Below are positions 2,485 to 44,960 of a stretch of 64,000 nucleotides of DNA, in pieces. The notes below the pieces were generated by a model. It had not been told where the DNA came from, did no database searches, and saw only the letters and a list, made by a program, of their open reading frames with translations. The translations under genes were made by a program, and so were the position numbers. The stretch comes from Chloroflexota bacterium. Its GTDB lineage: Bacteria; Chloroflexota; Anaerolineae; Aggregatilineales; Phototrophicaceae. Positions within the stretch are counted from its first letter, which is position 1. Every line of letters begins with the position of its first letter. The DNA lies in NCBI GenBank assembly GCA_028875185.1, contig JAPPFH010000077.1, forward strand, positions 1-64,000, written 5' to 3'.

Positions 2485-2506
2485 GAAGGTCTATGTCTAC
2501 GTGACC
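2485..2506 (+). repeat. 20-22 bp nested motif, copy 1 (variant atgtctacgtgacc)
   Basis: Interrupts the host repeat between 'atcccc' and 'ggccccttgcc'; the 43.6-kb copy reads straight through at this point. Two mismatches to the GTGTCTACGCGACC consensus. Confidence 0.65.
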
Positions 2507-2586
2507 CGGCCCCTTGCCCCCACAAGGAGGGAAGGGGAGTTTTTCAAGGAATTACGGGCTTTTGAAGTCCCTCCCTCATTTTGGGG

Positions 2587-2605
2587 TCGCGTAGACACTG
2601 ACCCG
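2587..2605 (-). repeat. 20-22 bp nested motif, copy 2
   Basis: Reads tcgcgtagacactgacccg on the + strand, the exact reverse complement of the consensus core. It lies between 'tcattttgggg' and 'tcggggaggg', where the 43.6-kb copy of the host repeat has only 'aaaatgagggaggg' joined to the C run. Confidence 0.7.
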
Positions 2606-2692
2606 TCGGGGAGGGATTTAGAGTGGGGGAAACGAGGGATATATCAACACATTCACCACACCCCGATTTCACGCAACTGAGCAAGAATCTCC

Positions 2693-2730
2693 AGCGCCTC
2701 GTATAATTTCTAGCGGGGCGCTTTTCTTTT
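2693..2730 (+). terminator. Hairpin plus T-tract, possible intrinsic terminator
   Basis: Arms agcgcctcg (2693-2701) and cggggcgct (2714-2722) pair with one mismatch around a 12-base loop, followed by ttttcttttg. The loop contains TATAAT, so the element could instead or also be a promoter for the glycosyltransferase that starts 50 bases downstream. No -35 box is apparent. Confidence 0.45.
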
Positions 2731-2779
2731 GCCGAGCGCGGCTTAGAGCCAATCGGCGAGACGAGGCATACGAATCGCT

Positions 2780-4159
2780 ATGTGGAAAAGGCTGGATCAG
2801 CGCAAACTGACGGTCGTCCTCCTCATCGCCATCGCTGCGCGTTTGGCTGCGCTGGCGCTGTTCCGCGAGCATTTCGCCTATAGCGAACCCGGCGGCGTGA
2901 TTCACGGCTCGGTCGCCTACGATGAGTACGCGCTGAACCTGCTGGAGACGGGCGTATACGGCCGCGTTGCCGGCGCCCCCGACGCTGGATTGCCGCCACT
3001 GTACAGCGCTGTTGTCGCCGCCGTATATGCCGTCTTCGGGCGCCAATACCTGGCGGTCGCCGCGCTGCATATCCTCTTCGACGCGCTGTCGATCGCGCTG
3101 CTCTACGACATCTGCCGCCGGCTCTTTCCGCGCCGCGGTCAAGAGGGCGATGTTATCGGCGCGCTGGCTGGTCTTTTCTTTGCGCTTTACCCCTATCTGA
3201 TCTTCCAAAACCTGACGCTAAACGACACGGCGTTTTGGATCCTGCTGCTGCATTTATTCGTGTGGCTGCTGATACGTTTGCGCGAACGGACCGCTACCGA
3301 CCGCGCGGCAATGGCGATCGCCGTGCTGGCGGGGCTGGCGCTGGGCATATCGGTCTTGGCGCGGGCGCTGCTGCCGCCACTGGCGCTGCTGGCGGCGCTG
3401 TGGTTCATGCTCAGACTCAGCCTCCGGGAGACGATTCTGCGGCTGCTGCCGGTGGCTGTCGTCAGTTTGCTGGTTCCGCTGCCCTGGCTGCTGCGCGCCT
3501 ACGACATTTATGGCGGCTTTGTGCCGATCGCGCTCAATAGCGGCGAGAATGTTTTTCAGGGCAACAACCCCTATGCGGCCGCCGTTTTCCGCGCTGGCTA
3601 CGATGTGCAATGGCTGGCGCCGCCCTTGGACATTCCGCCGACGGACGAGCGCCTGCGCCGCAACGCCGCTCTGGGCGAAGCCGGTTGGCGCTACCTGCGC
3701 GAAAATCCGGGGGCGGTCCCCGATCTGATGCTCGTCAAGCTGCTTGTTTATTGGAACCCGCAGGTCACGCCCCTGCGCAATCTGCGGCAAGGCGAGAAGC
3801 TGAGCGTGGATGCCGCGGGAAACATCGTCATCATCACCGGCGAAGGCTCGCAGCTTGGCGTGACCGCCGCCAACGCCGCCTATCAGGACAATAGCCTCTT
3901 CAACATCGTCGGGAGGAATCTGCACATCATCTACTTCGGCGGGCTGTGGCTTCTGGCGATCGCGGGCGCCTGGCTGCGCCGCCGCGAATGGCGGATGCTG
4001 AGCCTGCTCGTTTTCGCGCAGGTCAGTCAAACGCTCGTGTACCTGCTCTTCCATCCCTCGACGCGCTACCGCTCGCCGACCGACCCGCTGCTCTTCGTAT
4101 TTTCGGCGGCGGCAATAATGTGGGTTGTGGAACGATGGCGGGGGCGGAGAGTGAAGTGA
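2780..4159 (+). CDS. Polytopic membrane glycosyltransferase, GT39/ArnT-like
   Basis: About ten hydrophobic segments spread over 459 residues. The first transmembrane helix (about 11-28) is followed by a periplasmic loop with an acidic pair D48-E49 ('YDEYALNLLE'), the position of the catalytic acidic residue in the PMT/ArnT family, which transfers sugars from polyprenyl phosphate. A large soluble loop with 'GENVFQGNNPYAA' and 'RENPGAV' follows the central helices, as in dolichyl-phosphate-mannose-type transferases. Donor and acceptor cannot be told from sequence. It stands alone, preceded by a hairpin with a -10-like sequence. Confidence 0.75.
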   Translation: MWKRLDQRKLTVVLLIAIAARLAALALFREHFAYSEPGGVIHGSVAYDEYALNLLETGVYGRVAGAPDAGLPPLYSAVVAAVYAVFGRQYLAVAALHILFDALSIALLYDICRRLFPRRGQEGDVIGALAGLFFALYPYLIFQNLTLNDTAFWILLLHLFVWLLIRLRERTATDRAAMAIAVLAGLALGISVLARALLPPLALLAALWFMLRLSLRETILRLLPVAVVSLLVPLPWLLRAYDIYGGFVPIALNSGENVFQGNNPYAAAVFRAGYDVQWLAPPLDIPPTDERLRRNAALGEAGWRYLRENPGAVPDLMLVKLLVYWNPQVTPLRNLRQGEKLSVDAAGNIVIITGEGSQLGVTAANAAYQDNSLFNIVGRNLHIIYFGGLWLLAIAGAWLRRREWRMLSLLVFAQVSQTLVYLLFHPSTRYRSPTDPLLFVFSAAAIMWVVERWRGRRVK

Positions 4160-4265
4160 ATCGCTCCAGTCAATTGACCAAAATGAGAATACCCTGAAAA
4201 AAAGGTTGCGAGTCTCAAACACTTGTTCTATCCTTGTGCCAGACTAATGCTGCGGAAGGATTAGG

Positions 4266-5054
4266 ATGAACAGGCAGAATCCACCCAAAGGCATTGAGTG
4301 GACGCGAATAAAGACAGCCAATGGCGAGGTACTACCCGGCTACACTTGGAATCCGACCGGCGGCTGTTTCCACGGCTGCACCTGGCAAATGCCGGACGGG
4401 TCGGTCACCGAGTGCTATGCCAAGACGATCGCCGAGCGCTTCACATCCGGCTATCCAAACGGATTTGAACATCACTACTGGCGGCCGCACAGCCTGGACG
4501 CGCCGCGCAAGCTGAAGAAACCAGCCGGTATCTTCGTCGGCAGCATGGCGGACTTGTTCGGACACTGGGCGCCGGAAGAGCAGATTCGCCAAGTGCTGCA
4601 TGTGATGGAAGAAGCGCGCTGGCACACTTTCCAGACGCTGAGCAAGTTTCCGATCCGGCTGCCCGACTTCAATCCATTTCCCGAGAACGTTTGGGTTGGC
4701 GTGAGCTTGCCGGCTGGTCACTTGATGAGCGCAACCGGTGGCGCGCGGGCGCTGAAAGCCTACCTAAAACACATGAAGCAAATCAGGGCGACAGTCCGCT
4801 TCATGAGCGTCGAGCCGCTCTGGTTTGATGTGGCGCCGGTATTTGAGGAATGGCTGGAGCGGGAAGAGAAGCTGCCCTTCGAGTGGGCGATTATTGGGGC
4901 GGCGTCGAATGGGCGGCGTGTTTTCCAGCCCGAAACGAAGTGGACGGCGAGGCTCATTGAGCTACTGGATGAGCGGGACGTACCGATTTTCTTTAAGGGA
5001 AACATGGATAAAGACTTCTGGCAGGATTGGCGAGACGCATTCCCCATCGCCTAA
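4266..5054 (+). CDS. DUF5131 (phage Gp37/Gp68-type) three-Cys-motif protein
   Basis: 262 residues beginning with the family signature 'IEWT...YTWNP'. The cysteines C34, C38 and C50 ('GGCFHGC' and 'ECYA') form the three-Cys motif that gives the family its name and resembles, without exactly matching, radical-SAM cluster ligands. Further conserved blocks are 'IFVGSMADLFG', 'WVGVSLP', 'RFMSVEPLW' and 'WAIIGAASNG'. ATG at 4266 preceded by GGAAGGATTAGG. It converges on tcmP with an 11-bp gap; such pairing is the reason the partner family was named. Biochemical activity is unknown to me. Confidence 0.8.
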   Translation: MNRQNPPKGIEWTRIKTANGEVLPGYTWNPTGGCFHGCTWQMPDGSVTECYAKTIAERFTSGYPNGFEHHYWRPHSLDAPRKLKKPAGIFVGSMADLFGHWAPEEQIRQVLHVMEEARWHTFQTLSKFPIRLPDFNPFPENVWVGVSLPAGHLMSATGGARALKAYLKHMKQIRATVRFMSVEPLWFDVAPVFEEWLEREEKLPFEWAIIGAASNGRRVFQPETKWTARLIELLDERDVPIFFKGNMDKDFWQDWRDAFPIA

Positions 5055-5065
5055 CTTACTCTCTC

Positions 5066-6214
5066 TTATCGCATCAGCGATATCTCGACCTTATCGTTTC
5101 CAGGTGTCAATCCATTATGTATTTGTATCCGAGCTTTGAGATTCTCGAATTCCTTGGGAACACTAAGACTCCGCGGCCTACCACCCAGCACTGCCGTAAA
5201 CTGAGACCCTGAAAACCGTCCAAAATTATCAGCTCGCGAAGCCACCAGACCACGTAGCTCGTCTCTTACAGTCGAATCAACCTCTTCGAGTTCTACAAGA
5301 ACCGCCTGTTTGAGAGCTTTGAGTTCCCGCAGTATTTCGTCTTCGGGATTCAAATCAAAGAAGCTCATCTGCTGCCCAATGCCTGCTTCTTTTCGCTCGG
5401 CGTCCAAAGTGCGATCTCGGAGTCCTTGTGTTGCGAAACACACGTCGTTCATTACTTGCATGCCTTTTAGGCTCTTGGTCGCAAACAACAAATAGTACTT
5501 AAGGGCATCGTCAGAACTCAATATCGGGATTCTACCTACGTAGGGGAAATGCTTGATAAGCTTGTCCTCATACGCCTTTGTCAAGCGATCGCGTTTTCTT
5601 TGGGCCCCGTCATCATAGCTCGCCACGCATTTAAGCCAATAATCAGAGCTATCTTCACCGAGAATCGAGTTAAAGGTACTGTGAAGAGACTCTTCATTGC
5701 CTGTCAGCCTAGTTGCCGTCTGCGCATCAAATCGGATCAGGAGCTCAGTTTTCGCATCGCGGTGAAAAATGGGCAACAGTGCTTGCCACTCCAGTCCTTT
5801 AAGACCGATAGGATCAAGGAAAAAAAGAGTGGGTTTGTCACCAATTATGCCCAGGATCTCTGCCACATACTGGCCAAAGTCGCCGTGACGATTTGTTACG
5901 TAGTCTGAATATTGTGTTGTGCTACGTTCTAGGTTCTGAAACACGCAGTTATCTAATTCAACATTTATGCATTGAAGCGCATACTGAGCGTTTGTACGTG
6001 CCAATTCTTGGGCATGTTTTGCTGCCAGGACTGGTGACCCAATAGCATCATCTTTGGTATATTTTCCGGGACCCGCGAAACCATCAACGTAAAAGATCGA
6101 CTCCCATGACCGCATTATGGCCGACATAGCCTTCAGGTATTCTATGAGAATAGCGTGTTTCCACCGTGACCACGGCAAGAGCGATTCCTGATATTGTTTC
6201 GGATCAGTAGGCAT
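5066..6214 (-). CDS. tcmP: Three-Cys-motif partner protein TcmP
   Basis: 382 residues. The N-terminal half has 'FYVDGFAGPGKY' (about residues 41-52) and 'TLFFLDPIGLKGLEW' (about 130-144), the hallmarks of TcmP. These resemble the SAM-binding loop and the DPxx catalytic motif of Rossmann-fold methyltransferases. The C-terminal half has no recognised domain. The gene is clearly AT-richer than the P-type ATPase and glycosyltransferase around the pair, which suggests acquisition. Together with the convergent DUF5131 gene it forms a two-gene accessory unit. The family name is known; a nucleic-acid or protein modification role is inference. Confidence 0.83.
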   Translation of the reverse strand: MPTDPKQYQESLLPWSRWKHAILIEYLKAMSAIMRSWESIFYVDGFAGPGKYTKDDAIGSPVLAAKHAQELARTNAQYALQCINVELDNCVFQNLERSTTQYSDYVTNRHGDFGQYVAEILGIIGDKPTLFFLDPIGLKGLEWQALLPIFHRDAKTELLIRFDAQTATRLTGNEESLHSTFNSILGEDSSDYWLKCVASYDDGAQRKRDRLTKAYEDKLIKHFPYVGRIPILSSDDALKYYLLFATKSLKGMQVMNDVCFATQGLRDRTLDAERKEAGIGQQMSFFDLNPEDEILRELKALKQAVLVELEEVDSTVRDELRGLVASRADNFGRFSGSQFTAVLGGRPRSLSVPKEFENLKARIQIHNGLTPGNDKVEISLMR

Positions 6215-6285
6215 CTGGCATCCGTTCCTAAATCTTCAAACAAGTATGCCAACATTAGCACATTCATTCGATGCCGGCAATCCAC

Positions 6286-8730
6286 TCACTCCCGATCCGG
6301 CGCTAGCAGATCCCAGAAGCGATTGAGCAAATAGCGATGCCGCATCGCCTGCGACAGCAGCGCCATCGTCAGGGTGAATAGCGCCGCAATCGCCACGATC
6401 ATCAGCGAGCCATCACCGCCATCCCAGTGCGGCGGATCAAACTCGAAAAGCGCCGGAAAGAGGTACATCGCGATGATGGTCAGCGCCGTCAGCGCGCTGC
6501 TCAGCAGCAGGATGCGCCAGTGCTGCAGGAAGGAATCGGGGTTGTAGAGGTCGATTCCCTGGATATGCCAGGTGATCAGCATGCCGTAAAGCGCGACCAT
6601 GATCGTCATCGCCGAGCGCGTCATCGTCAAATCACCGCCGCCGCCGAACCACACGATGAGGTAGAGCAGTGTCATCACCGCCGCGCCGATGCAGCCCATG
6701 GTGACGATGTAATCCAGCACATCGCGCCGGTAATGCGCCATGAATCGCGGGCGCAGCCAGCCAAAGGCGATCAGCGTGGCCGGCAGATTGACCGTGCCGA
6801 AGGTCGCCCAACTGATCTGCACTGGCGTAATCGGGAATGGAAGCGCCATGAAAGCGATGCAGACGAAGAGCGCCACCATGAAGAAATTGCGCACCAGGAA
6901 CATCTTCATCGTGCCGAAGATGGTCTGGGTGGTCTCCTTGCCCTCGCGGAAGGCGCGCGGCAGCGTCGACATGGCGTTGTTGAGCAAGACAATATCGGCG
7001 ACATCTTTGCTGATCTGCGTGCCGTCGTTCATCACAATGGCCAAGTCGGCTTCTTTCAGCGCCGGCACATCATTGACGCCATCGCCCACCATCGAGACGT
7101 ATTCGCCGTTGCGCCGCAGCGATTCGACGATGCGCTGTTTGGTATCCGGCTCGATGCGGGCGAAGACGTGGCTCTCGCTGACGGCGCTGTCAAATTCGCC
7201 CGCTCCCATCGCATCCAGTTCGGCGCCGCTGTAGGCGCGGCTGCCGATATCCATGCCCGCGGCGGCGGCGATAGCGCGCACAGTCTCAATGTTGTCGCCC
7301 GAGATCACCTTGAGCGTCAGCCCCTCGTCGCGGAAAGCGGCCAGCGTGTCCTGGATGTCGTGGCGGATCTGGTCGCTCATGACGATCAGCGCCAGCGGCG
7401 CTACATCATAGACAGCGACGCCGGAGGCCACATCCGGTTCGCCCGCCATTTGGGCAAAAGCCAGAACGCGCATGCCATCAGCGGAAAGTGTTTCCGCCCG
7501 CTGCAATTCGGGGCTGTCGCTCGGCAGCAGGCGCTCGGGCGCGCCCAGCAACAGGGTCTTTTCCGGCAGGCGGACGGCCGCCCATTTGCGCCCGGAGGAA
7601 AAGGGAATCTCCTTCAGCTTCGGCGGGTAATCGGCGTCGACCACCACGTCATCTATGTAGCGGTCTATAGCTTGAGCCGTGTTATTCAGGTGCGCCAGAT
7701 TCTTCAAGAAGCTATGCAGATCGCTGTGGATGTCGCTGAGAGTGGCCGCTTCGATGGGAACCACTTCGCGCACGGCGAGTTTGTTTTGCGTCAGCGTGCC
7801 GGTCTTGTCGAAGCAGAGCACAGTCGCGTTCGCCAGCGACTCGACGGCGTTGACGCGCTGGATCAGCGTCTGCTGCCGGCTGATCTTGACGGCGCCGATG
7901 GTCAGCGACAAGATCGCCACCAGCACCAGCCCTTGCGGCACCAGGCTGGTGGTGAAGACGACGGCGTTGCGCACGATCTCGAGGAATTCGTTGCCTGTGC
8001 TAAAGCCGGTGACGAAGATCAGCGGCACGAATATCGCCATGATGACAACGGCGACTTCGACCGTGATATCAATTTTGATCTGGGTCGGCGTCTTGACCAG
8101 CTTATATTGCTTGGCGATGACGGACAGGCGGTTGATGTGGCTCTCGGCGCCGACCTTGGTCGCGCGCATGACGCCGGCGCCGGCGATGCAGAATGAGCCG
8201 GACAAGACCGCGTCATCGAGCGCTTTGCCGACGGCGTCCGATTCGCCAGTCAGATGCGATTCGTCCATCTCCAGCGAATCGGCTCGCAGGACGACGCCAT
8301 CGACGACCAGCCGGTCGCCCGGCTCGATTCGGATGATCTCGTCCTTCACCACGGCGCGCATCGGCACATCAATCCATTCGCCATCGCGCCGGCAGCGCAC
8401 GGTCTGTTCGACAAGCGCCGCCAATTGGTCGAGTTGACGCTTGGCGTTGAATTCCTGGATCATGCCGAAGAAGGTATTGGAGACGACGCTGAAGCCGGCG
8501 AAGAAAGCGGTGGCGTAATCGCCCAAGGCGATGACGATGATCAGCATTGACCCCAGAACGATGTTGAAGAGATTGAGCACATTCTCACGGAAGATATTCC
8601 AGTAGCTGCGGCCCACGCGCGCTTCAAAGTCGTTGGATTGGCCGCTGCGGATGCGCTCGCGTACGTCGCTCGCGCTCAACCCGGCGAGGTCTTCGCTGTC
8701 TTCGCTGGTGTGTTCATGTGTCGCTTGCAT
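6286..8730 (-). CDS. Cation-translocating P-type ATPase, CtpE-like
   Basis: 814 residues with full P-type machinery: actuator loop TGES at 161-164, phosphorylation motif DKTGTLT with D308, hinge 'MVGDGVNDVPAL', and membrane helices at about 50-95, 225-285 and six in the C-terminal third. The N-terminus ('GLSASDVRERIRSGQSND') and overall pattern resemble mycobacterial CtpE, a calcium-uptake ATPase, rather than heavy-metal pumps: no N-terminal metal-binding domains and no CPx motif. The M4 motif reads PQGL (265-268) where CtpE and calcium pumps have PEGL, so the ion may differ. Transcribed alone. Confidence 0.88.
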   Translation of the reverse strand: MQATHEHTSEDSEDLAGLSASDVRERIRSGQSNDFEARVGRSYWNIFRENVLNLFNIVLGSMLIIVIALGDYATAFFAGFSVVSNTFFGMIQEFNAKRQLDQLAALVEQTVRCRRDGEWIDVPMRAVVKDEIIRIEPGDRLVVDGVVLRADSLEMDESHLTGESDAVGKALDDAVLSGSFCIAGAGVMRATKVGAESHINRLSVIAKQYKLVKTPTQIKIDITVEVAVVIMAIFVPLIFVTGFSTGNEFLEIVRNAVVFTTSLVPQGLVLVAILSLTIGAVKISRQQTLIQRVNAVESLANATVLCFDKTGTLTQNKLAVREVVPIEAATLSDIHSDLHSFLKNLAHLNNTAQAIDRYIDDVVVDADYPPKLKEIPFSSGRKWAAVRLPEKTLLLGAPERLLPSDSPELQRAETLSADGMRVLAFAQMAGEPDVASGVAVYDVAPLALIVMSDQIRHDIQDTLAAFRDEGLTLKVISGDNIETVRAIAAAAGMDIGSRAYSGAELDAMGAGEFDSAVSESHVFARIEPDTKQRIVESLRRNGEYVSMVGDGVNDVPALKEADLAIVMNDGTQISKDVADIVLLNNAMSTLPRAFREGKETTQTIFGTMKMFLVRNFFMVALFVCIAFMALPFPITPVQISWATFGTVNLPATLIAFGWLRPRFMAHYRRDVLDYIVTMGCIGAAVMTLLYLIVWFGGGGDLTMTRSAMTIMVALYGMLITWHIQGIDLYNPDSFLQHWRILLLSSALTALTIIAMYLFPALFEFDPPHWDGGDGSLMIVAIAALFTLTMALLSQAMRHRYLLNRFWDLLAPDRE

Positions 8731-9029
8731 GGCTGGAATTGTAATGCCAAATTGAACTACGGAAGTAGAACCAAGTTAGCCATAGGAAACAGTCGGACAT
8801 ATATTGCATGAGCAGGCGAGCCACTTCGCATTGTATTCGAGATTTCATCCAAATGGCGGACATGCTCATGGCTTACTTGGAATCTCCGAGAACACAGTCG
8901 ATGAGGGCGAGAATCATAAGTTGTACGATTATCATGCGCGCGGCGTTTCGTAAAACCCGCCATGTCGTGTATTTTCTGTTATTCTCGTAAACGATAGTCG
9001 CTTACTTAGACCAGACGAGAGGATGTACC
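8731..9029. other. Divergent intergenic region, no gene seen
   Basis: 299 bases between the divergent ATPase and mannonate dehydratase genes. Short open frames here have no ribosome-binding site or family resemblance. No hairpin repeat or 20-bp motif. It presumably holds both promoters, but none stands out. Confidence 0.5.
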
Positions 9030-10007: not shown

Positions 10008-10033
10008 TTGGCTTCAAGCCGCCCAGCCCGCGG

Positions 10034-20832: not shown

Positions 20833-20890
20833 TGTAGGGGCGTTTGACCCGCTGTGTCTACGCGCGGCGCTGAAACGCGCTCCGTAATGC
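20833..20890. repeat. gtaggggcg-type hairpin with nested 20-bp motif (copy 3)
   Basis: 'tgtaggggcgttt' and 'gaaacgc' are the arms of a hairpin that occurs uninterrupted at 27810-27834 and 42478-42505. Here the loop is expanded by gacccgctgtgtctacgcg; the GTGTCTACGCG core is at 20854-20864. Lies in the gap between the aldolase and the divergent hypothetical gene. Confidence 0.65.
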
Positions 20891-21688: not shown

Positions 21689-21738
21689 TGTAGGGGCGAG
21701 CGAACTGCAGTGTCTACGCGCAGCGGGGGCTCGCCCAC
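21689..21738. repeat. gtaggggcgagc-type hairpin with nested 20-bp motif (copy 4)
   Basis: Arms 'gtaggggcgagc' and 'ggctcgccc' enclose gaactgcagtgtctacgcgcagc; the core GTGTCTACGCG is at 21710-21720. Sits 75 bp before the phytanoyl-CoA dioxygenase start. Confidence 0.65.
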
Positions 21739-22964: not shown

Positions 22965-23019
22965 CCCCCATCCCCCCCCCCCTTGCCGTAGTGCAGTGTC
23001 TACGCGCACCCCACAAGGA
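22965..23019. repeat. Host repeat, left part, with nested 20-bp motif (copy 5)
   Basis: 'cccccatccccc' and 'ccccttgcc' match the left part of the host repeat at 2471 and, inverted, at 43592-43710. The motif (core 22996-23006) interrupts between 'ccttgcc' and 'ccccacaagg', a different insertion point from the one used at 2485. The run of 12 or more Cs could be a site of polymorphism. Confidence 0.7.
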
Positions 23020-23192
23020 CTGAGGACAGGACAGGTTTGGTCTAATCGAAAATTTATGGTATAAGTTAGACTTCGAAAGCATCTATCCTGGCGAAAACTG
23101 TAGGGGCGACCCAGTGGGTCGCCCGAAATAGCCCAAGCAAACACGAAATTTGCGACGAAATTCTGCCCGCCGCAAAACTGTCCTGTCGTCAG
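23020..23192 (+). mobile_element. 173-bp MITE-like element, copy 1
   Basis: Ends are ctgaggacaggacag and, on the other strand, ctgacgacaggacag: 15-bp terminal inverted repeats with one mismatch. The centre carries the hairpin taggggcgacccagtgggtcgccc. No coding capacity. An inverted copy of exactly the same length lies at 55271-55443; hand alignment finds 13 differences in 173 positions. Both copies sit inside the C-rich host repeat. No target duplication is evident here: the flanks are 'cccacaagga' and 'tcttcatgtg'. Confidence 0.82.
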
Positions 23193-26541: not shown

Positions 26542-26689
26542 TACCGCCTCCATCGCAAAGGCGCATGTCTCCCTCGCGCAATTGAATTGTATCGCAGTAT
26601 CCGCGCTTATCCATGCGCTGTGATATAGGGAGTGGAGAATACTGACGATACGGATTCAGCCCGATCTTGTCAAGCAATCTCTGTGCCGG

Positions 26690-26709
26690 CGGTCAGTGTC
26701 CACGCGACC
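26690..26709 (+). repeat. 20-bp motif, solitary copy 6
   Basis: cggtcagtgtccacgcgacc: one base different from the consensus core (C for T at 26701). It is not inside a recognisable hairpin. It lies in the 291-bp gap between the antitoxin gene and the divergent PIG-L gene, which otherwise shows nothing. Confidence 0.55.
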
Positions 26710-27748: not shown

Positions 27749-27836
27749 TGTAGGAGATCGTATAGACACTGACCGTCAGCCGCCCGTCGATAGATTGCCC
27801 GAATACAATCGGGCGTTTCACGAAACGCCCCTACAG
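27749..27836. repeat. Compound hairpin repeat with nested 20-bp motif (copy 7)
   Basis: Starts gatgtagg, carries the motif on the minus strand (core variant cgtatagacac, 27759-27769), then 'gccgcccgtcga' and ends with the perfect hairpin cgggcgtttcacgaaacgcccctaca. The same compound repeat, without the motif, is at 42428-42505; the last 31 bases are identical in both. Confidence 0.65.
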
Positions 27837-33530: not shown

Positions 33531-33539
33531 GGGATTGTG

Positions 33540-34187: not shown

Positions 34188-34253
34188 GCAAATCAGTACG
34201 CCCCTGCTACAATCGCCACAATCGCATACAGACTAAAGAAAGGACAGTCCCCA

Positions 34254-36855: not shown

Positions 36856-36870
36856 ATTGCGCAGCGAACA

Positions 36871-37140: not shown

Positions 37141-37174
37141 TTTCATTTTCTTAAGAACTGGAGCAACCCATCCC

Positions 37175-38491
37175 ATGCCAAAAATCACCTTCATCGGCGC
37201 CGGCAGCTTCGGCTTCACGCGCAAGCTGGTTAAGGACATTCTCACATTCCCCCTGCTCGAAGGCAGCGAGATCGCGCTGATGGATATCGACGCCGAGCGC
37301 CTCGATTTCGCCCAGCGCGCTGTGTCCCGCATCGTGGAGGCTGGCGAGTATCCGGCTAGGGTTACCGCCACGATGGATCGCATTGAAGCGCTGCGCGGCG
37401 CCGATTACGTTGTCGTAACGATCTTGGTGGGCGCGACCGAAGTTTGGCGGCACGATATCGAGATCCCGATGAAATACGGCGTCGATATGAACGTCGGCGA
37501 TACGCGCGGCGTCTCCGGCATATTCCGCTCGCTGCGCACGATCCCAGTCCTGGTCGATATCGCGCGCGACATGGAGCGCTACTGCCCGAACGCGCTTATG
37601 CTGAATTACACCAATCCGATGGCGATGCTCTGCCGGGCGATGGACATCGAAGCCGACATCAATGTCACCGGCTTGTGCCACAGCGTACAGGGCACCTCGA
37701 AGATGCTGGCGAACTGGATTGGCGCGCCTTATGACGAGATCAACTATACCTGCGCCGGCATCAACCACACGGCTTGGTTCATCGACTACACCTGGAATGG
37801 CGAAGACGCCTACCCGCTCATCCAGCGCGCCATAACGGAAAACCAAGACATCTACAATGCCGAGCAGGCGCGCAACGAAATGTACCTGGCGCTGGATTAT
37901 TACGTGACCGAATCGAGCGGGCACAACTCGGAATACAATTGGTGGTTCCGCAAAAGGCCCGACTTAATCGAGAAATACGCTACGCATGGCACCAATTGGA
38001 ATCCCGGGCATCACGCCTACATTCTCAAAGAATACCGCCGGCGCGAGCACGATTGGCGCGATGCTATCCACGACTGGTTCGCGGAAGACGAGATTGACCT
38101 CGAGCGCGGGCATGAATATGCCGCCTACATCATCAACGCGATGGAAGGCGGCGCGCCTTTCAAATTCAACGGCAATGTGCCGAACGCCGGCTTGGTCGAC
38201 AACTTGCCGAACAGCGCCTGCGTTGAGGTACCGGTATGGGCTTCGCGCGATGGGCTGGAAGCGGTCGCCGTTGGCGCTTTGCCACAGTCGGTGGCGCCGC
38301 TGACCAACCTCTACTCGCAAATTGAAGAGATGGCGGTCGAAGGCATCCTCAAGGGCGACAAGCGGCTGATCTATCAGGCGGTGGCATACTCGCCGCTGTC
38401 GGCCGCGGTCTGCTCGCTGCGAGAGATTCAGTCGATGGTGGATGAGCTCTTTGCGGTGAATGAGGCGTATCTGCAGCCGACCTATGCTTGA
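37175..38491 (+). CDS. GH4-family alpha-glycosidase (alpha-galactosidase-like)
   Basis: 438 residues from ATG 37175, GGAG eleven bases upstream. NAD-binding '[16 protein letters not shown]', '[11 protein letters not shown]', Mn-site Cys/His in 'GLCHSVQG' and 'GINHTAWF', and '[12 protein letters not shown]' are GH4 traits; these enzymes cleave glycosides by an NAD-dependent oxidation-elimination route. The CHS form of the metal motif is typical of alpha-galactosidase and alpha-glucuronidase members rather than phospho-glycosidases. Cytoplasmic. Confidence 0.88.
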
Positions 38492-38613
38492 GTGGATCAG
38501 ATCAAGCGCCTTGGTCTCGCTGATATGCTTTACAAGACACCTTTAAGGCAGTATCATTCACTTGTGTGCCAGCATCATTGATCTTTCTGCTCAAGAGCTA
38601 GGGGCAGTGCGCC

Positions 38614-39132
38614 TTGATCTCAAGCATTAGTCCTCGTCTCCGGATGTACCTGAGGGTGATTGTCTTTGGTGGGCTATTAGGTTTCGCAGGAGGAGTTGCC
38701 GAAGCAATTGTCAAAGAGCCCAGCCTTGCCAAGAGCGTAGGAATAGCTAAAGCTGCTATCGGCATTGCTCAAAGCTACGCATTTCAGAATATGATATTTT
38801 TCTGCATTACTTATGGCATTATTGCGATAATTGTAACGCTGCTGTTTGATTACGAGCCAACCCCACATCGCTTCAAGCGTGTCATGGCGCTAGCAATGCT
38901 TCCACTTTCTCTCATATTGACCATCGCAGGTATACAGAGCGCGCTTCGTTATCCGTCGCTTTATGACGCTTCAGACGTATTTCAGTTTATCGCGCACTTC
39001 ATGGGCGTTCTTTGGCTCAGCCAATACGTAGCGCACAACTACCTCCGCGAGATTGTGGACCGCAATCAAGAGAATAAACCGGTCTTGGATAATGTCACGC
39101 CTGCTGCGGGAGATCCAGTCGAAGGTGGATGA
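38614..39132 (+). CDS. Four-helix membrane protein, paralogue A
   Basis: 172 residues from TTG 38614 (GGGG ten bases upstream), or shorter from ATG 38644. Four hydrophobic segments, then a polar tail. The last part 'SDVFQFIAHFMGVLWLSQYVAHNYLREI' (in part) matches the next gene's 'FDAFHLLTHALAIFSSQLAAGKYLRDL', so they are old paralogues. Family not recognised. Confidence 0.55.
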   Translation: MISSISPRLRMYLRVIVFGGLLGFAGGVAEAIVKEPSLAKSVGIAKAAIGIAQSYAFQNMIFFCITYGIIAIIVTLLFDYEPTPHRFKRVMALAMLPLSLILTIAGIQSALRYPSLYDASDVFQFIAHFMGVLWLSQYVAHNYLREIVDRNQENKPVLDNVTPAAGDPVEGG

Positions 39133-39226
39133 GCCAATTGCTGTGAACGGAGCTTTTTCGCGGACGGCACTTGCTTGAGCGTCGCGAATGCGGCTACAAT
39201 CGGGGCGAGGAGAAAGGCAAAGCATC

Positions 39227-39706
39227 ATGTGGCGAGCCAATCCTTTGCTGAAGCTGTTTACGCGGGCTTTTGCCTACGGCGCGGTTACCGAAGTCGTACT
39301 AGGCACTTTGATCCTTTTCATATTCATATCGGGGTTTGGGTTTCTGGGGCCAGATCCTCCTCTGCTGCGCGTGCTGTTGATAAACGCGCTAGCGAGCATG
39401 CTATCGACGGCGCTGACGCTGGCGCTGCCGATGACGCTGGTGACGGCGCTTTGCTTCCGCGAGATTCGCCGTCCAAAGTTTTACCGCTTCGCCATGTTAA
39501 CCGTCGCGCTGCTCACTTCCATCTTGGTCTGGCCTGGGCATTTTGAAGGGATGGGCGGGACACTGCAAAGCAACGCTCCGACGGAGTTCAAAGCCTTCGA
39601 CGCCTTCCATCTATTGACGCATGCACTGGCGATATTCAGCTCGCAACTGGCGGCTGGAAAGTATCTGCGGGATTTGGCAGCGCGCAAACCCGCCAAGAAA
39701 TCCTAG
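39227..39706 (+). CDS. Four-helix membrane protein, paralogue B
   Basis: 159 residues from ATG 39227, with GGAGAAAGG upstream; a TACAAT at 39195 may be its -10 box. Same four-helix layout and conserved last helix with a central histidine as paralogue A. Its stop codon overlaps the stop of the convergent C39-like peptidase gene. Confidence 0.6.
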   Translation: MWRANPLLKLFTRAFAYGAVTEVVLGTLILFIFISGFGFLGPDPPLLRVLLINALASMLSTALTLALPMTLVTALCFREIRRPKFYRFAMLTVALLTSILVWPGHFEGMGGTLQSNAPTEFKAFDAFHLLTHALAIFSSQLAAGKYLRDLAARKPAKKS

Positions 39707-40746
39707 CCACCCGGCGCCCGCAGGCGATCGCGCGCCTCCCGCGCCGGGGTGAAATTCGGATTGAAGGTCAGCGCTGTGATGTAGTTTTCCAGCGCCAAGC
39801 CGACTTCGCCGCGTCCCTCGCGCGCCATGCCCAAATAATAATAAGTCTCCTCAACGTAATGGCCGCCGCCATCATTCTGGTTCTGGCGCGAAATGCGGAT
39901 CATGTCATCGTAACGTCCGGTGTGGTAGTAAGCTTCCCAGGCGCCGAACTGATACCAGAACATGCGCCAGGGCAAGCCAAGCGAGATCGCCTTGTCATAA
40001 GCCTGCGCCGCCGCATCGTACATGCCCAGCTCGACGAAGCTGCTGCCCATGTTGAACCAGGCGTGGGGATCTTCCTGATCGTCGATCGCTTCGGCGCGCG
40101 CCATCTCCAGCGCGTTGATCTGGTTCTGCCACTCATCCGCGTCATCGCCCAGCAGCGCCATCAATTCCTCTTCGCGGTTTGAGGTGTATAGCACGATGTA
40201 CCGATAGTTGAAGTGCTGCCAGTAATGCTCGATTTTGTCGTAGCTGTAACGGGTGTTGGGTCCGTTGAAGCTGTCCATGCTATTGAATTCACTGAGCGCG
40301 TCGTCGTATCCAGCTAGCAGCAAATAATGCCCCATCCAGGTATAACCGGAGGGCTCGTAGCCAAACTCGATGACCACCGGAAAATCGTTGACCATAAGGG
40401 TCTGCAGCAGTTCAATCGTCCCGCCGTCGCGCGTGATGGCGTAAACGGGCAGTTCGGGGATCTGCGTATTGACGAATTCCACCATCTGCCAGGCGCTGAC
40501 ATTTTTGTCCTCGTTATTGGGCTTCAGATACTTGGCGGCGCGGTACTGATCGTCGGTGTATCCGAAGTGGACCAGCGCATTTGTGAGCGTGGCGGGCGCG
40601 CAATTGTTCCAGCCTTGATATTCCGTGCCCAAGTTCCGCATGCGGAAGATATCGGGCAAATCGGCGCTCTCTTCGTTAGTCTGCGCCAGCGCGCCCCCGC
40701 CGGCGATACCCACTGCAAGGAGCAGAAGCAAAAGGCGCTGCATCAT
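39703..40746 (-). CDS. Secreted C39-like cysteine peptidase with TPR repeats
   Basis: 347 residues with a signal peptide (about 1-21, ending 'GGALAQ'). 'YQGWNNCAPATLTNAL' has the catalytic cysteine and 'GYTWMGHYLLLAGYDD' the catalytic histidine of the Peptidase_C39_2 family. The C-terminal 150 residues are two or three TPR-like helix pairs ('AWFNMGSSFVELGMYDAAAQAYDKAI'-type, in part). Likely extracellular or envelope bound; substrate unknown. Upstream gap contains one hairpin repeat. Confidence 0.8.
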   Translation of the reverse strand: MMQRLLLLLLAVGIAGGGALAQTNEESADLPDIFRMRNLGTEYQGWNNCAPATLTNALVHFGYTDDQYRAAKYLKPNNEDKNVSAWQMVEFVNTQIPELPVYAITRDGGTIELLQTLMVNDFPVVIEFGYEPSGYTWMGHYLLLAGYDDALSEFNSMDSFNGPNTRYSYDKIEHYWQHFNYRYIVLYTSNREEELMALLGDDADEWQNQINALEMARAEAIDDQEDPHAWFNMGSSFVELGMYDAAAQAYDKAISLGLPWRMFWYQFGAWEAYYHTGRYDDMIRISRQNQNDGGGHYVEETYYYLGMAREGRGEVGLALENYITALTFNPNFTPAREARDRLRAPGG

Positions 40747-40871
40747 CAGATCACTAGCTTTCGCTGAGATTCTGTCATCACCTGATTATACACAAGATGA
40801 GACACGCATATTATACGGGCGGCATACGATGTCGGCGCGGGCGACCCGCCAACTCGCGCGGCCGAGCAAGA

Positions 40872-40903
40872 TTGGTAGGGGCGACCTATTAGGTCGCCCG
40901 CCA
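40872..40903. repeat. gtaggggcgacc hairpin
   Basis: tggtaggggcgacctattaggtcgcccgcc: near-perfect 9-bp arms. It lies 30 bp past the end of the sulfatase gene, a plausible terminator position. Confidence 0.6.
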
Positions 40904-40931
40904 AAGCGACAAAAAGACAGACAAAACGTCG

Positions 40932-42287
40932 CTAGAGCCAGCCCTCTTCGATGTCTACATGGAGTTGGCCGCTTCCGGGGACCAGCGGCGCCGGCTCAAT
41001 AATTGGCTCATCTTCGCCCGCTTCGATCATGCGGCGAATCAAACGGGAACGCAGCACATCACAGACCGCGCGATGAGTCTTGAGACCGGCGCGGTTGTGC
41101 AGCTCCTCGGGGTCGGCGAGCAAATCGTAGAGCTCGGATTCAACGTAGTGTTCGCTGGAAGCATCGTCCCAGCCGTCTCCATTCGGCGCGGAAACGGAAT
41201 ATTTCCAACGCTTGCTGCGACTCGCCCGCCCTAGCTGCGACTCGCTCATCTGGATGAATACTTCCTCTTGCCAGTCGACCGCTTCACCACGGACCAGCGG
41301 CAGGATCGAATTTCCGCTCATTGCATCAGGCACGGGGATGCCAGCAGCGTCGAGCAAGGTCGGCGGCAGGTCAATCAAGCTGACGAGCTGTGATATCCGT
41401 CCGCCACCAGTGAAGGGGCCACCATGGAGCATGGTCGGCACGCGTACAGAAGCGTCATGACAGGAGCGCTTGTATTCGGCGTTGCGCGTCTTGAAGTGAT
41501 TGCCATGATCGGAGGTGAAGAGGATGATGGTGTCCTCCAGCAGGTCCAGGCTGATCAGCGCGTCGACCAACCGACCAAGCGCTTCGTCCAGCCGCTTGAT
41601 CATGCCCAGGTAGCCAGCCAGCTGCTGATGGCTGGAGCCGCCTAGCGCCGCCAGGTCCGGTGGCAGCCAGCGCCCGCGATAGCGCTCGGCGTATCCAGGC
41701 GGCGCTGGATAATCATCACGATGGTTCTGATGGTGCGGCTCGATGAATGAGGAGAAGAGGAAGAACGGTCGATCCTGATGATCGTTGATGTAACGGATCA
41801 TGGCATCGGTTTGGGCGTCTACGCGGTAGCCGGGCAGTTTATGCGCCGCGCCATCGCCGTCATACATCACCATGTCGTAGGCATCGGACGTGAATTCCAG
41901 AATATTGGAAGCCAGCCAATAATTGTAGCCGCCGCGCCGCGCCTTTGACACGGGCCCCGCGCCTTCATCCGACAAATGCCACTTGCCGATATAGGCGGTG
42001 TCGTAGCCTGCATCGCCGAAGTAATGCGCCAGCGTTCGGCTCTCGATGGGCAAAGGCACGTCATTTCGGTAACAGCCGGTTTCCGTGGCATAGAGACCTG
42101 TTTGCAAGCAGGCGCGCGCCGGACCGCAGACGGGCTGGCAGGTGATCGAATTGTGGACATCAGTGCCGGCGCGGGCGAGTCGGTCGAAATTCGGCGTCAT
42201 ATCCAGCGGGTTGCCGTGGATGCCGGTCGTATCCCAGCGTTGCTGGTCGGTGAAGAAGACGATTACATTCGGGCGTTTTCGAGCCAT
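40932..42287 (-). CDS. Type I sulfatase (formylglycine-dependent)
   Basis: 451 residues. 'NVIVFFTDQQRWDTTGIHGNP' supplies metal ligands; the maturation motif is 'CGPARACLQTG' (C-x-P-A-R variant), whose cysteine must be oxidised to formylglycine by a maturase not encoded in this window. 'LFTSDHGNHF' is the second metal site. Cleaves sulfate esters from glycans or small molecules. No signal peptide is evident. ATG 42287 with AGGAA nine bases upstream. Fits the glycan-degrading tone of the neighbouring GH4 and dehydratase genes. Confidence 0.9.
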   Translation of the reverse strand: MARKRPNVIVFFTDQQRWDTTGIHGNPLDMTPNFDRLARAGTDVHNSITCQPVCGPARACLQTGLYATETGCYRNDVPLPIESRTLAHYFGDAGYDTAYIGKWHLSDEGAGPVSKARRGGYNYWLASNILEFTSDAYDMVMYDGDGAAHKLPGYRVDAQTDAMIRYINDHQDRPFFLFSSFIEPHHQNHRDDYPAPPGYAERYRGRWLPPDLAALGGSSHQQLAGYLGMIKRLDEALGRLVDALISLDLLEDTIILFTSDHGNHFKTRNAEYKRSCHDASVRVPTMLHGGPFTGGGRISQLVSLIDLPPTLLDAAGIPVPDAMSGNSILPLVRGEAVDWQEEVFIQMSESQLGRASRSKRWKYSVSAPNGDGWDDASSEHYVESELYDLLADPEELHNRAGLKTHRAVCDVLRSRLIRRMIEAGEDEPIIEPAPLVPGSGQLHVDIEEGWL

Positions 42288-42427
42288 AGATTATTTTCCT
42301 CTCTGATTGGTAAATCCAATTGTAATCGGATGAGGCGAGGGTGCGCAAAAGCGTATATTCGCCACAGCCCTTCGCAAGTCAAACTTGGCTCACACAAAAT
42401 AATAAACCCGATAGTATTGAAAAGTCG

Positions 42428-42505
42428 TAGGGGCGAGACGGTGGCTCGCCCGTCGAATTATGTTCTGTACACAAGCGGGCGTTTCACGAAACGCCCCTAC
42501 AGATG
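42428..42505. repeat. Compound gtaggggcg / gggcgttt hairpin repeat, uninterrupted copy
   Basis: First hairpin gtaggggcgag...ctcgccc, then gtcgaattatgttctgtacac, then cgggcgtttcacgaaacgcccctaca. This is the uninterrupted form of the element at 27749-27836. The 374-bp gap also holds a promoter-like sequence further right and an 'acacagagag' stretch; no gene is seen. Confidence 0.7.
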
Positions 42506-42593
42506 TCTTCCAAGATGAGGTTTATCAAAAAGAGACATAGAAAACACAGAGAGATAACCTGCGGATTCCAGCAAGAAGTCCAGATCGCGATGT

Positions 42594-42621
42594 TTGGAAT
42601 TACGAACTGATTCGGTATACT
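42594..42621 (+). promoter_or_regulatory. Putative promoter of the TIM-barrel/dehydratase pair
   Basis: TTGGAA and TATACT separated by 16 bases, 40 bp before the ATG at 42662. Confidence 0.4.
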
Positions 42622-42661
42622 CTCGCCTGATTCGCCTGTCGGCAAGCGGCAAAGGGATGGC

Positions 42662-43591
42662 ATGAAGAAAACACGCGACTTCCTACAAAACAGTGGCTAC
42701 CCGCCCGGCGAGCTCTACGACCTGCCGACATCAGAAAAGCGCTTCCCCGATGGCGCGCAATACCGCATCGAGATCCCCAGCACCGAGGGCCCGCGGGCCT
42801 TGGCGGCAGTGCTGGAAGCGGCCGAGCGCTATGGCGTGACCATTCATCGCGTCTCGCAGGGCAGCGGCATTTGGATGCTTACGGATGAAGAAATCCGCGA
42901 GATGTGCCGCCTGGGCGCGGAAGCCGGCATCGAGGTCAGCTTATTCGTGGGTCCGCGAGCGGCTTGGGGCACGGGCGCGCAAGTGCGGGCGAGCGCGGGC
43001 AAAAACTTGGGCGCGCGCCTGCGGGGCATGGACGAAGTCGTCTACGCAACGGAAGACATCATCCGCGGCTGTGAGCTGGGCTTGCGCTCGGTTCTCGTGG
43101 CCGACGAAGGCCAGCTCTGGCTTGTCAATGAGATGAAGAAAGCGGGCGCCTTGCCGGCCGATCTGGTGGTCAAGATTTCGGTGCAGATGGGCGCGGCCAA
43201 TCCCATTTCGATCAAGCTGCTGGAAAGCATGGGCGCGGGCAGCTACAACACCCCGACCGATTTGACGCTGCCGCAGATGGCGGCGATCCGCGCGGCCATC
43301 GATATTCCGCTGGATGTCTATGTCGAGGCGCCCGACGACTTTGGCGGTTTCGTACGCCATTATGAGACTCCGGAGCTGATTCGGGTGGCGGCGCCCGTTT
43401 ACGTCAAACTGGGCTTGCGCAACGCGGCGAATATCTATCCCAGCGGACTTCATATTGAAGACTCGGCTATCAAGCAGTCGCAGGAGCGCGTACACAGGAC
43501 GGCGCTGGTGATGAACATCATCAAGCGTTACGCCGGGGACGCGGTCATGGGTGCTGTCGGCGCGGATGATTTGGGGATTCCGGCGGTTTAG
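42662..43591 (+). CDS. TIM-barrel protein, U32-peptidase-like, unknown substrate
   Basis: 309 residues with repeating beta-alpha units ('VYATEDIIRGCELGLRSVLVADEGQL', in part; 'PLDVYVEAPDDFGGF'). I recall close relatives annotated as U32-type peptidases or hypothetical proteins beside enolase-superfamily genes. The sequence starts 'KKTRDFLQNSGYPPGELYDLP'. The next gene is such a dehydratase, reached through a repeat-filled 122-bp gap. The catalytic role is not known; an aldolase or epimerase-like activity in sugar-acid breakdown is only a guess. Confidence 0.6.
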   Translation: MKKTRDFLQNSGYPPGELYDLPTSEKRFPDGAQYRIEIPSTEGPRALAAVLEAAERYGVTIHRVSQGSGIWMLTDEEIREMCRLGAEAGIEVSLFVGPRAAWGTGAQVRASAGKNLGARLRGMDEVVYATEDIIRGCELGLRSVLVADEGQLWLVNEMKKAGALPADLVVKISVQMGAANPISIKLLESMGAGSYNTPTDLTLPQMAAIRAAIDIPLDVYVEAPDDFGGFVRHYETPELIRVAAPVYVKLGLRNAANIYPSGLHIEDSAIKQSQERVHRTALVMNIIKRYAGDAVMGAVGADDLGIPAV

Positions 43592-43710
43592 CCAGCCCCC
43601 ACCCCAAACCCCTCCCCCAAAATGAGGGAGGGACTTTAGTAGTGCTAAATCTTAGTGAATTCACCCCTTCCCTCCTTGTGGGGCAAGGGGCTGGGGATGG
43701 GGGGTTAAAC
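43592..43710. repeat. Host repeat, complete and uninterrupted copy
   Basis: Starts ccagcccccaccccaaacccctcccccaaaatgagggagg in part, ends ccttgtggggcaaggggctggggatgggggg. This is the reference copy: it lacks the 20-bp motif at both positions where the 2471-2631 copy has it, and has no MITE where the 55-kb copy does. Its G-rich end lies directly before the dehydratase ATG. Confidence 0.8.
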
Positions 43711-43713
43711 AAA

Positions 43714-44871
43714 ATGAAAATCGGCAACGTCAGCACGATGGTGATGGGTACGCCTTGGCGGAATCTGCTCTTCGTCAAGGTCGAGACGGACGACGGCTTG
43801 GTCGGCTGGGCTGAGGCGAGACCGGTCGGTGGCGTCGGTCCTGTGATCGGCTATCTCAAGGAAACCGTGCCCGATTTCGCTTTAGGGCGCGATCCCTTCA
43901 ACACCGAGGATATGTGCTACCGCATGATGCGCGAAACTTACGGACGCGCTGGCGAGATCGCCATGACCGGCATCGCCCTGCTAGAGATCGCCTGCTGGGA
44001 TATCATTGGCAAGGCGATTGACCAGCCGGTGTATCGGCTGCTGGGCGGCGCCGTCCGCGATCGGATCAAAGCCTATGCCAACGGCTGGTACCGGGTGGAG
44101 CGGAAGCCCGAAGCCTGGTACGCCGCGGCGAAAGAAGTGGTCGGCAAGGGCTACCGCGCCCTCAAGTTCGACCCCTTCGGCAGCGGCTTTTACGAATTCA
44201 CGCGCGAAGAAAAGCTGCTTTCGATATCGCTGGTGGAAGCGGTTTACGATGCGGTGGGACCGGATGTCGAATTGCTGATCGAGATGCACGGACGCTTCAA
44301 TCCGGTGACGGCGGTCGAGATCATCCGCGATCTGGCTGAGTTCCGGCCCGGCTGGGTGGAAGAGCCGGTGCCGCCAGAGAACCTGCGGGCGCTGCGGGAT
44401 GTGCGCGAGGTGGCTTTGGGGCTGGGCATCCCGGTGGCGACGGGCGAACGCATCCACACGCCCTATGAGTACCGCGAACTCTTCGAGCTGAACGCGACCG
44501 ATATCATCCAGACCGACACCACCCATTTCGGCGGCATCATGAATATGAAGAAACTTGCGGGCACAGCCGAGATGTATTATGTGCTGGTGGCGCCGCACAA
44601 TGTCGGCGGTCCTTGTTCGACGATGGCGTCGCTGGCGGTGGCGGCGACCACACCCAATTTCAAGATCCAGGAATACTTCAACGACTTCGCCGACCCGCCG
44701 GTCAAGGCGGTCGGACAGGGCATGCCGCAGGTTGTCGATGGCTACTTCTCGCTGCCGGAAAAGCCCGGGCTGGGCGTTGATATCGACGAAGACATCATCG
44801 CCGAGTATCCGCAGCGCGAAGTCGACTTCAACCTGTTTTCCGATGACTGGCACCGGCGAGACTTGAAGTAG
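43714..44871 (+). CDS. Enolase-superfamily sugar-acid dehydratase (mandelate racemase group)
   Basis: 385 residues from ATG 43714. Catalytic layout of the MR subgroup: 'ALKFDPFG' (Lys-x-Asp), metal ligands in 'LLIEMHGRF', 'WVEEPVPPEN' and 'VATGERIHT', and the general-base histidine in 'VAPHNVGGP'. Galactonate or gluconate dehydratases are the nearest patterns; product would be a 2-keto-3-deoxy acid. The Shine-Dalgarno (GGGGGG, about 8 bases upstream) belongs to the preceding repeat. Probably co-expressed with the TIM-barrel gene. Confidence 0.88.
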   Translation: MKIGNVSTMVMGTPWRNLLFVKVETDDGLVGWAEARPVGGVGPVIGYLKETVPDFALGRDPFNTEDMCYRMMRETYGRAGEIAMTGIALLEIACWDIIGKAIDQPVYRLLGGAVRDRIKAYANGWYRVERKPEAWYAAAKEVVGKGYRALKFDPFGSGFYEFTREEKLLSISLVEAVYDAVGPDVELLIEMHGRFNPVTAVEIIRDLAEFRPGWVEEPVPPENLRALRDVREVALGLGIPVATGERIHTPYEYRELFELNATDIIQTDTTHFGGIMNMKKLAGTAEMYYVLVAPHNVGGPCSTMASLAVAATTPNFKIQEYFNDFADPPVKAVGQGMPQVVDGYFSLPEKPGLGVDIDEDIIAEYPQREVDFNLFSDDWHRRDLK

Positions 44872-44880
44872 CCTGCGAGC

Positions 44881-44960
44881 CCACCCTATTCCCTCCCCGG
44901 CGGGTCTGTGTCGGCGGTCTGTGTCTACGCGACCTACGCGACCCCAATGTGAGGGAGGGG
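44881..44960. repeat. Host repeat, half copy, with nested and partly duplicated 20-bp motif (copy 8)
   Basis: 'ccctccccggcgggtc' and 'gaccccaatgtgagggagggg' flank the motif (core 44921-44931). Inside, 'ggtctgtgtc' occurs twice and 'tacgcgacc' twice, so the insert has undergone internal duplication. It is the mirror image of the right part of the 2471 copy. Confidence 0.7.

Follow-up and report, generated by a model that had tools for sequence, protein, structure and literature searches.

In a 64,000-nt stretch of the genome of a Chloroflexota bacterium (contig JAPPFH010000077.1, positions 1 to 64,000; hereafter the window), a preliminary description had noted a motif of about 20 bp that seemed to be inserted into several intergenic repeats. 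We found that this motif marks a mobile or recently mobile hairpin of 22–24 nt (hereafter the unit). It is a discrete insert with clean edges, it is present or absent at orthologous sites, and its high copy number is limited to one Chloroflexota genus. With a probability of roughly 0.5, the unit transposes as a single-stranded hairpin; an enzyme acting in trans would insert this hairpin at the tip of a further one. Our comparison covered 34 genomes of the genus (G000–G033, one per species), including the 4.37-Mb genome in 158 contigs to which the window belongs (the source genome).

The exact 11-nt core of the motif, GTGTCTACGCG, occurs 257 times in the source genome (132 forward and 125 reverse), and the reversed core, used as control, occurs once. 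The idea that core counts would far exceed the expectation from base composition was borne out genome-wide by this more than 100-fold excess over the control, which rules out chance as the origin of the copies. The window alone proves nothing in this respect, since matches with up to three mismatches are not in excess within its 64 kb (160 vs. 185 expected). Across the 33 genus mates, the core is present in 31 (0–261 copies each), two (G022 and G031) being without any copy. Counts were 0–3 in 27 genomes of other genera and 0–5, as for the reversed control, in 294 other-genus genomes of the class. Further carriers comprise at least 80 records, those listed being all metagenome-assembled genomes (MAGs) of Chloroflexi, Chloroflexota or Anaerolineae; judging from their isolate prefixes, these other carriers may be sponge-associated. 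Within the window, no Rfam family matched at the gathering score, and we found no earlier description of the unit in the open part of the literature, where the three papers containing the core string were unrelated by title.

The unit is composed, in this order, of GNN, a 4-bp stem, one unpaired base, GTG, the loop TCTA, CGC and the complementary stem, 22 nt in total; a 24-nt form has one more outer pair and thus a 5-bp stem. The unpaired base is mostly A, sometimes T or G, the left half of the stem ends in C, and the three nucleotides before the stem are mostly GGC, GAC, GAA or GTA, with no GTAG-type tag at the 5′ foot. In a first set of 62 copies, taken from 298 kb of the source genome (20 stretches around listed copies plus the window), all four outer pairs were formed in 58. 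A larger set of 250 copies with distinct surroundings kept each outer pair in 243–248 copies although the stem letters differ, and the next position outward was paired in 33 (13%) vs. 19% expected from composition. At position 6–20, for example, T-A was found in 174, G-C in 55 and C-G in 11 of these copies; 97% were paired vs. 60% predicted from column composition. The outer ggtc/gacc, previously described as a mini-palindrome, therefore does pair, but its letters are not fixed and change in compensating pairs; a fixed ggtc...gacc motif of 19–20 bp is ruled out by the variation of the outer stem. For 48 hand-picked units out of 79 distinct ones, the covariation score was 0.388 vs. 0.093 in shuffles and was reached by none of 500 shuffles. 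Two of the five measures used separated from the shuffles not strongly: further pair types numbered 13 vs. 9.9 (7 of 500; weak separation), and pairs changed on both sides did not differ (3 vs. 3.0). As the rows had been picked by the exact core, the inner stem was unable to vary in this test. It compensates too, G-C being replaced by A-T (ATG/CGT) in 11 of 188 GGTC...GACC hairpins, and its T.G pair is unchanged in all 188. On the complementary strand, T.G turns into a C.A mismatch, so that this fold is one of the motif strand, or of RNA with the same sense.

The edges of the unit could be placed by removing it. Cutting 8 nt to the left and 3 nt to the right of the core rebuilt an 18-mer found elsewhere for 23 of the 62 copies, compared to at most 11 for any other cut length, those 11 belonging to length 13, the half-unit of nested copies. 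We further scanned length differences for the 188 units (out of 198 contexts) whose stem reached 4 bp, leaving aside the other 10; up to 4 mismatches were allowed in each 18-nt flank, and paralogs and orthologs were pooled. A homologous place was exactly 22 nt shorter for 122 units, with 21 nt (6 units), 23 nt (15), 24 nt (12) and the half-unit lengths 13 and 9 (24 units each) as the other differences. Full empty sites were found for 115 of 165 22-nt units, 9 of 19 24-nt units and none of the four units with longer stems. This sharp mode at 22 nt agrees with the earlier proposal of discrete inserts with clean edges, and the size of 22–24 nt, together with differences of exactly this length at orthologous loci, upholds the view of an insertion unit far smaller than any miniature inverted-repeat transposable element (MITE). 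Of the 165 22-nt units, 158 start with G; the host supplies C (116) or T (36) immediately upstream and, in 164, a pyrimidine (C or T) immediately downstream. The first G and the following pyrimidine, considered as a possible pair, are each conserved on their own, so that covariation is uninformative for them. No target duplication was detectable at the unit edges, where length differences are exactly 22 or 24 nt, with a 1-nt ambiguity at some sites. We do not claim that the GNN overhang pairs with the target as an IS608-like guide: the dependence seen between them included the nested class, which is probably its driver.

Where one ortholog has the unit and another lacks it, the difference in length is exactly 22 or 24 nt, as had been anticipated for an insert. 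The unit at 21702–21723 is present in the source genome and in G026, and G028 and G006 show a gap of exactly 22 nt in an otherwise aligned region. One nested site has one vs. two levels between orthologous loci, and one repeat series shows states of 0, 22 and 44 nt. A further case lies in a glycosyl hydrolase gene of family GH116, identified by PF12215 and PF04685, for which 30 loci were fetched out of 33 genomes with any match. The protein of the source genome (L010:561-3173, contig C5) contains an in-frame insert of eight residues translated from the unit. No insert is present in 26 of the 30 orthologs; the source genome, G023 and G009 carry 24 nt, and G005 carries 48 nt (16 residues), made up of one 24-nt unit whose loop is interrupted by another of the same length. 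Four of these inserts (source genome, G023 and both of G005) fold alike despite differing letters, and that of G009 has one stem mismatch by eye. The site at 20846–20867 is filled in G028 and G002 too, and the same gene neighbourhood of G005 holds the host repeat without the unit, in flanks that align poorly. Flank alignments across loci, 141 in total, gave 25 filled sites, 8 clean gaps of 22 nt (6 units), one clean gap of 44 nt and three larger gaps. On the GH116 protein tree (FastTree, midpoint root, one gene, no support values shown, insert columns kept in), the genomes filled at the GH116 site do not form one clade, and those filled at 21702 are scattered as well. Both patterns may thus reflect repeated insertion at one exact point, precise loss or exchange between species. 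An ancestral motif without clean boundaries, named earlier as the observation that would speak against insertion, does not fit the clean boundaries at the two mapped sites; given the scatter of filled genomes on the gene tree, some lineages may have lost an ancestral unit precisely.

Three kinds of host were recognised. The first is the unit itself, which is entered in the middle of its TCTA loop, after the C (TC^TA). Among 202 contexts, 148 had one level, 32 were nested two deep and 6 three deep, and 16 did not fit the unit; no leftover half was seen in 29 of the 32 two-deep and in all 6 three-deep nests. The second comprises hairpins of GTAG-tagged repetitive extragenic palindromes (REPs): a GTAG-type tag lies close to 51 of 153 non-nested units, with 44 units on the tag strand, 6 on the other strand and 1 on both. 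REP-hosted units may descend from fewer insertion events. Long C-rich palindromes, such as that at 2471–2631 of the window, form the third kind. In 127 distinct empty sites, the positions 1–4 nt downstream of the insertion point lie in a predicted apical loop in about 70%, which places the entry point of the unit on the 5′ side, at the shoulder of the host hairpin's predicted tip. Simple gene calls put 157 copies between genes and 11 within an open frame, and left 30 unplaced. The 11 copies comprise five with a 5-bp stem, one with a 6-bp stem and five with a 4-bp stem; a 5-bp stem corresponds to 24 nt and thus keeps the reading frame, and several of the five copies with 4-bp stems look like miscalled gene ends. 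An open frame of 1130 residues (L176:2018-5407) holds a 24-nt unit read from the other strand. Copies showed no bias relative to genes or transcription (82 vs. 79), and no link to the direction of transcription was seen. Neighbouring pairs 1–60 kb apart were on the same strand in 36 of 59 cases in G023 and 30 of 52 in the source genome, which was not significant (100 of 149 places used in G023, 99 of 257 in the source genome).

How such insertions might arise is suggested by these features taken together. The unit would fold as a single-stranded hairpin on the motif strand, and an enzyme probably supplied in trans by the genus would recognise its structure and loop rather than its stem letters; the folded unit would then be joined into the tip of another hairpin, its own copies included. 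The restriction of the T.G pair to the motif strand and the strand bias of insertions in REPs suggest a single-stranded substrate. Single-strand insertion by a hairpin-reading enzyme is likewise the best fit to the exact, duplication-free inserts, the single functional strand, the combination of a constant loop with a variable stem, and the insertion of the unit into itself. A single-strand transposase of the Y1/HUH type would be the first candidate for how insertion works; according to passages of PMC6006769, Y1 transposases bind hairpins of about 20–25 nt and use single-stranded DNA. The unit is too short to encode such an enzyme itself. A bolder formulation, which we put forward only tentatively and hold to be rather doubtful, is a class of loop-to-loop transposition distinct from IS200/IS605 and REP/RAYT systems, in which a 22-nt hairpin is excised and joined as a folded strand into hairpin loops, its own included, by an enzyme reading shape and loop. 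Local GC skew provided a suggestive strand bias in relatives: after masking of 400 nt around each unit, and where the skew exceeded 0.04, the C-rich strand held more units than the other, 41:10 in named relatives and 13:4 in G023. We treat this bias as suggestive only, because the skew is patchy and the origin was not located; skew was positive on the strand of ribosomal protein L2 in 14 of 20 flanks, and the flanks of dnaA and L2 left the leading strand unassigned.

With regard to replication, the DnaA C-terminal domain (PF08299) was found in 6 of the 34 genus genomes and not in the MAG of the window, compared to 10 of 14 control genomes; ribosomal protein L2 was detected in all 34 genus genomes. 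On the 897-kb contig G014:C5, GC skew changes sign repeatedly among 22 sampled stretches. The sparse DnaA domain and the flipping skew might point to replication that is not started by DnaA.

Matches to RAYT-type transposases occur in 27 of the 34 genus genomes (the query protein itself matches NF047646 below the cut-off), and matches to Y1_Tnp exceed the cut-off in 13, mostly weakly. Hairpins with GTAGGGGCG lie within the fetched flanks of RAYT-type Y1 transposase genes (L194-L223) in a REPtron-like arrangement, and the same sequence occurs twice in 30 control loci of ribosomal protein L2. Given that GTAGGGGCG is abundant at RAYT loci, at which the unit is found once, the GTAG REPs of the genus appear to be RAYT's own repeats, with the unit as a guest in them. 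Genome G033 (8.5 Mb, 6% contamination), with 4 unit copies, 11 RAYT matches and the strongest Y1_Tnp matches of the genus, is possibly misplaced in the genus or mixed.

Several observations weigh against movement of a single-stranded hairpin by an enzyme of the genus. No enzyme could be tied to the unit by RAYT, Y1_Tnp and PF00078 profiles in the 34 genus genomes. RAYT is unsupported as the linked enzyme: the rank correlation of RAYT matches with unit copy number is weak (0.32, p = 0.07, 33 genomes), seven genomes without a RAYT match carry 5–145 units, the two genomes without the unit carry 3 and 4 RAYT matches, and the unit occurs once in 30 fetched RAYT loci vs. 72 occurrences of GTAGGGGCG in 27 of the 30. 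The unit also lacks a 5′ GTAG tag, and the strand bias relative to GC skew is absent in the source genome (6:6). As to the target, insertion exactly inside predicted apical loops was not what we found, the insertion point lying in such a loop in 37 of the 127 empty sites (29%) vs. 47% in shuffles, and at the 5′ shoulder instead. As to the sites themselves, 104 of the 141 flank alignments gave no clean call, a half-unit that the parser left unpaired adjoins 27 of the 148 one-level contexts (on one side only in 18), and paralogous empty sites need not be former targets. Finally, stem pairing could be kept by hairpin-templated correction after insertion.

The preliminary description had offered movement as DNA, a template switch or a binding site. 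The last, taken on its own, has become unlikely, and movement as DNA and template switching both still stand. An alternative that we regard as unlikely is an RNA copy, in which the unit is transcribed, enters nucleic acid as a hairpin of the transcript and is then reverse-transcribed; such an RNA route has reportedly been suggested for the small dispersed repeats (SDRs) of cyanobacteria. The invariant T.G pair, which pairs on the motif strand only, is what RNA would show, and the compensating stem changes resemble an RNA family. Yet the transcribed strand is not preferred, and a reverse transcriptase as linked enzyme is unsupported: PF00078 exceeds the cut-off in only 7 of 34 genomes, genomes without it carry up to 215 copies, and its correlation with copy number is 0.07 (p = 0.71, 33 genomes). 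A template switch without a dedicated enzyme, in which replication stalls at the tip of a hairpin while the growing strand briefly takes another copy of the unit as template, we judge to be somewhat more unlikely still. It would suit insertion close to the tips of hairpins and within the loop of the unit itself, as well as some strand bias relative to GC skew in relatives, and hairpin-templated correction would account for the compensated stems, too. It leaves unexplained, however, why the same 22 or 24 nt are inserted with exact ends and without evident homology beyond a pyrimidine, and why, with hairpins present everywhere, the family is confined to a single genus. That the unit is a selected regulatory hairpin, a binding site for protein or RNA spread by its function, is very unlikely: 157 of the 168 placed copies are intergenic, and the constant loop and unpaired base resemble a recognition feature, but copies are not oriented relative to genes, units nest in each other and occur within the GH116 coding sequence, and two genus mates manage without any copy. 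Least probable is a unit that was ancestral in each repeat and precisely deleted in some lineages, since unlike hosts share it, nests form the series 0/22/44 and 0/24/48, 26 of 30 GH116 orthologs are empty and the host hairpin is intact without it, even if some precise losses are possible given that neither at 21702 nor in GH116 are the filled genomes sister groups.

Elhai et al. (2008; Genome Res 18:1484) reportedly described the SDRs of Nostoc and its relatives as hairpins of about 20–27 nt with compensating changes. These are said to nest in their own copies and in other repeats, to be confined to one clade and to show signs of recent mobility. SDRs are briefly mentioned in PMC3116915 and PMC2884548. 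Compared to SDRs of this description, the unit is alike in size (22 or 24 nt, inside the span of 21–27 nt taken for SDRs), compensated hairpin, self-nesting, insertion into other repeats and clade limit; it occurs in Chloroflexota rather than cyanobacteria. Traits of the unit to be set beside these are self-insertion in the middle of a tetraloop, lengths of 22 and 24 nt tied to one extra pair, and in-frame placement in a gene. IS200/IS605 elements are not known to duplicate their target on insertion, which the unit shares. As far as passages of PMC6006769 describe them, both have a hairpin recognised by structure (apparently so for the unit) and insert with strand bias. The unit differs in having no gene and one 22-nt hairpin instead of two ends. 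With regard to the lagging-strand rule of IS200/IS605, the unit shows a strand bias relative to GC skew in relatives and none in the source genome. Insertion sequences (ISs) that target REP palindromes are about 1 kb in size. They are the subject of Tobes and Pareja (2006; PMC1525189) and reportedly enter REP palindromes like the unit does, yet as full ISs with their own transposase. GTAG REPs are known from Chloroflexi, as stated in passages of Di Nocera (2013; PMC3733652), and GTAG-tagged REPs with RAYT transposases are treated in passages of Quentin (2018; PMC6006769). They resemble the unit as short, mostly intergenic hairpins of high copy number; the unit is untagged, does not accompany RAYT genes and sits inside REPs. 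GC clusters of yeast mitochondria, to go by passages of PMC4478555, are likewise short mobile palindromes that merge into larger ones and are present or absent at homologous sites; they are larger (the best studied one has 42 nt) and have flanking AG or ACT direct repeats as putative target duplications. MITEs, given as 70–300 bp in a passage of PMC3733652, have a target duplication, in contrast to the unit of 22–24 nt.

The genus thus provides a second case of a mobile-looking repeat of about 20 nt in another phylum, beside the SDRs of cyanobacteria. To our knowledge, the mode of movement of such repeats has been open since the SDRs were described. As a resource, the genus offers 34 genomes with 0–261 copies, empty and filled orthologous sites and nests that record the order of insertion. 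The stem is free to vary, so that the recognised part can be read from an alignment, and the states of 0, 24 and 48 nt in one GH116 gene make the unit edges and self-insertion directly testable. If the proposed insertion of folded hairpins is true, bacterial palindromes can grow by hairpin-in-hairpin insertion, and if movement as a single strand is true, the unit would be among the smallest mobile DNA elements known.

Within the window, all eight places named in the preliminary description carry a unit; its length is 24 nt at 2584–2607 and 22 nt at the other seven places, and each unit starts with G and has a complete outer stem of 4–5 bp, counting G-T as a pair (Table 1). The claim that seven of them lie inside other repeats held for six (2493, 2588, 20854, 21710, 22996 and 44921), the last being a unit nested in a unit, and not for 26696. 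The motif at 27759 adjoins a GTAG hairpin; no empty form could be demonstrated for it, so that only six of the seven are confirmed. As described before, the repeat at 43592–43710 lacks the motif at two positions: the palindrome at 2471–2631 aligns to it after removal of both units, the second insertion point closing without a gap and the first with a gap of 1 nt in a run of C. By reading, the unit at 22988–23009 marks the third insertion position in the same kind of host repeat that had been proposed.

Table 1. Copies of the unit and an empty host repeat in the window.
Feature	Position	Strand	Context
Unit, 22 nt, A-T at base of inner stem (ATG-TCTA-CGT)	2485..2506	+	inserted in host palindrome 2471-2631
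Unit, 24 nt, 5-bp outer stem	2584..2607	-	second insert in host palindrome 2471-2631
Unit, 22 nt, stem CCGC/GCGG	20846..20867	+	near tip of GTAG-tagged REP hairpin
Unit, 22 nt, stem CTGC/GCAG	21702..21723	+	near tip of GTAG-tagged REP hairpin
Unit, 22 nt, stem GTGC/GCAC	22988..23009	+	in dispersed host palindrome
Unit, 22 nt, loop TCCA	26688..26709	+	outside any recognised repeat
Unit, 22 nt, inner stem GTG-TCTA-TAC, fully paired with G-T counted	27756..27777	-	beside GTAG REP hairpin
Outer 24-nt unit, left part, split by inner unit	44899..44912	+	by reading
Inner 22-nt unit, nested in TC^TA loop of outer unit	44913..44934	+	
Outer 24-nt unit, right part	44935..44944	+	by reading
Host palindrome copy without units	43592..43710	not assigned	empty control for 2471-2631

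A dispersed repeat of about 200 bp at 22979–23192, which carries a unit, is 87–95% identical at several other places of the genome.

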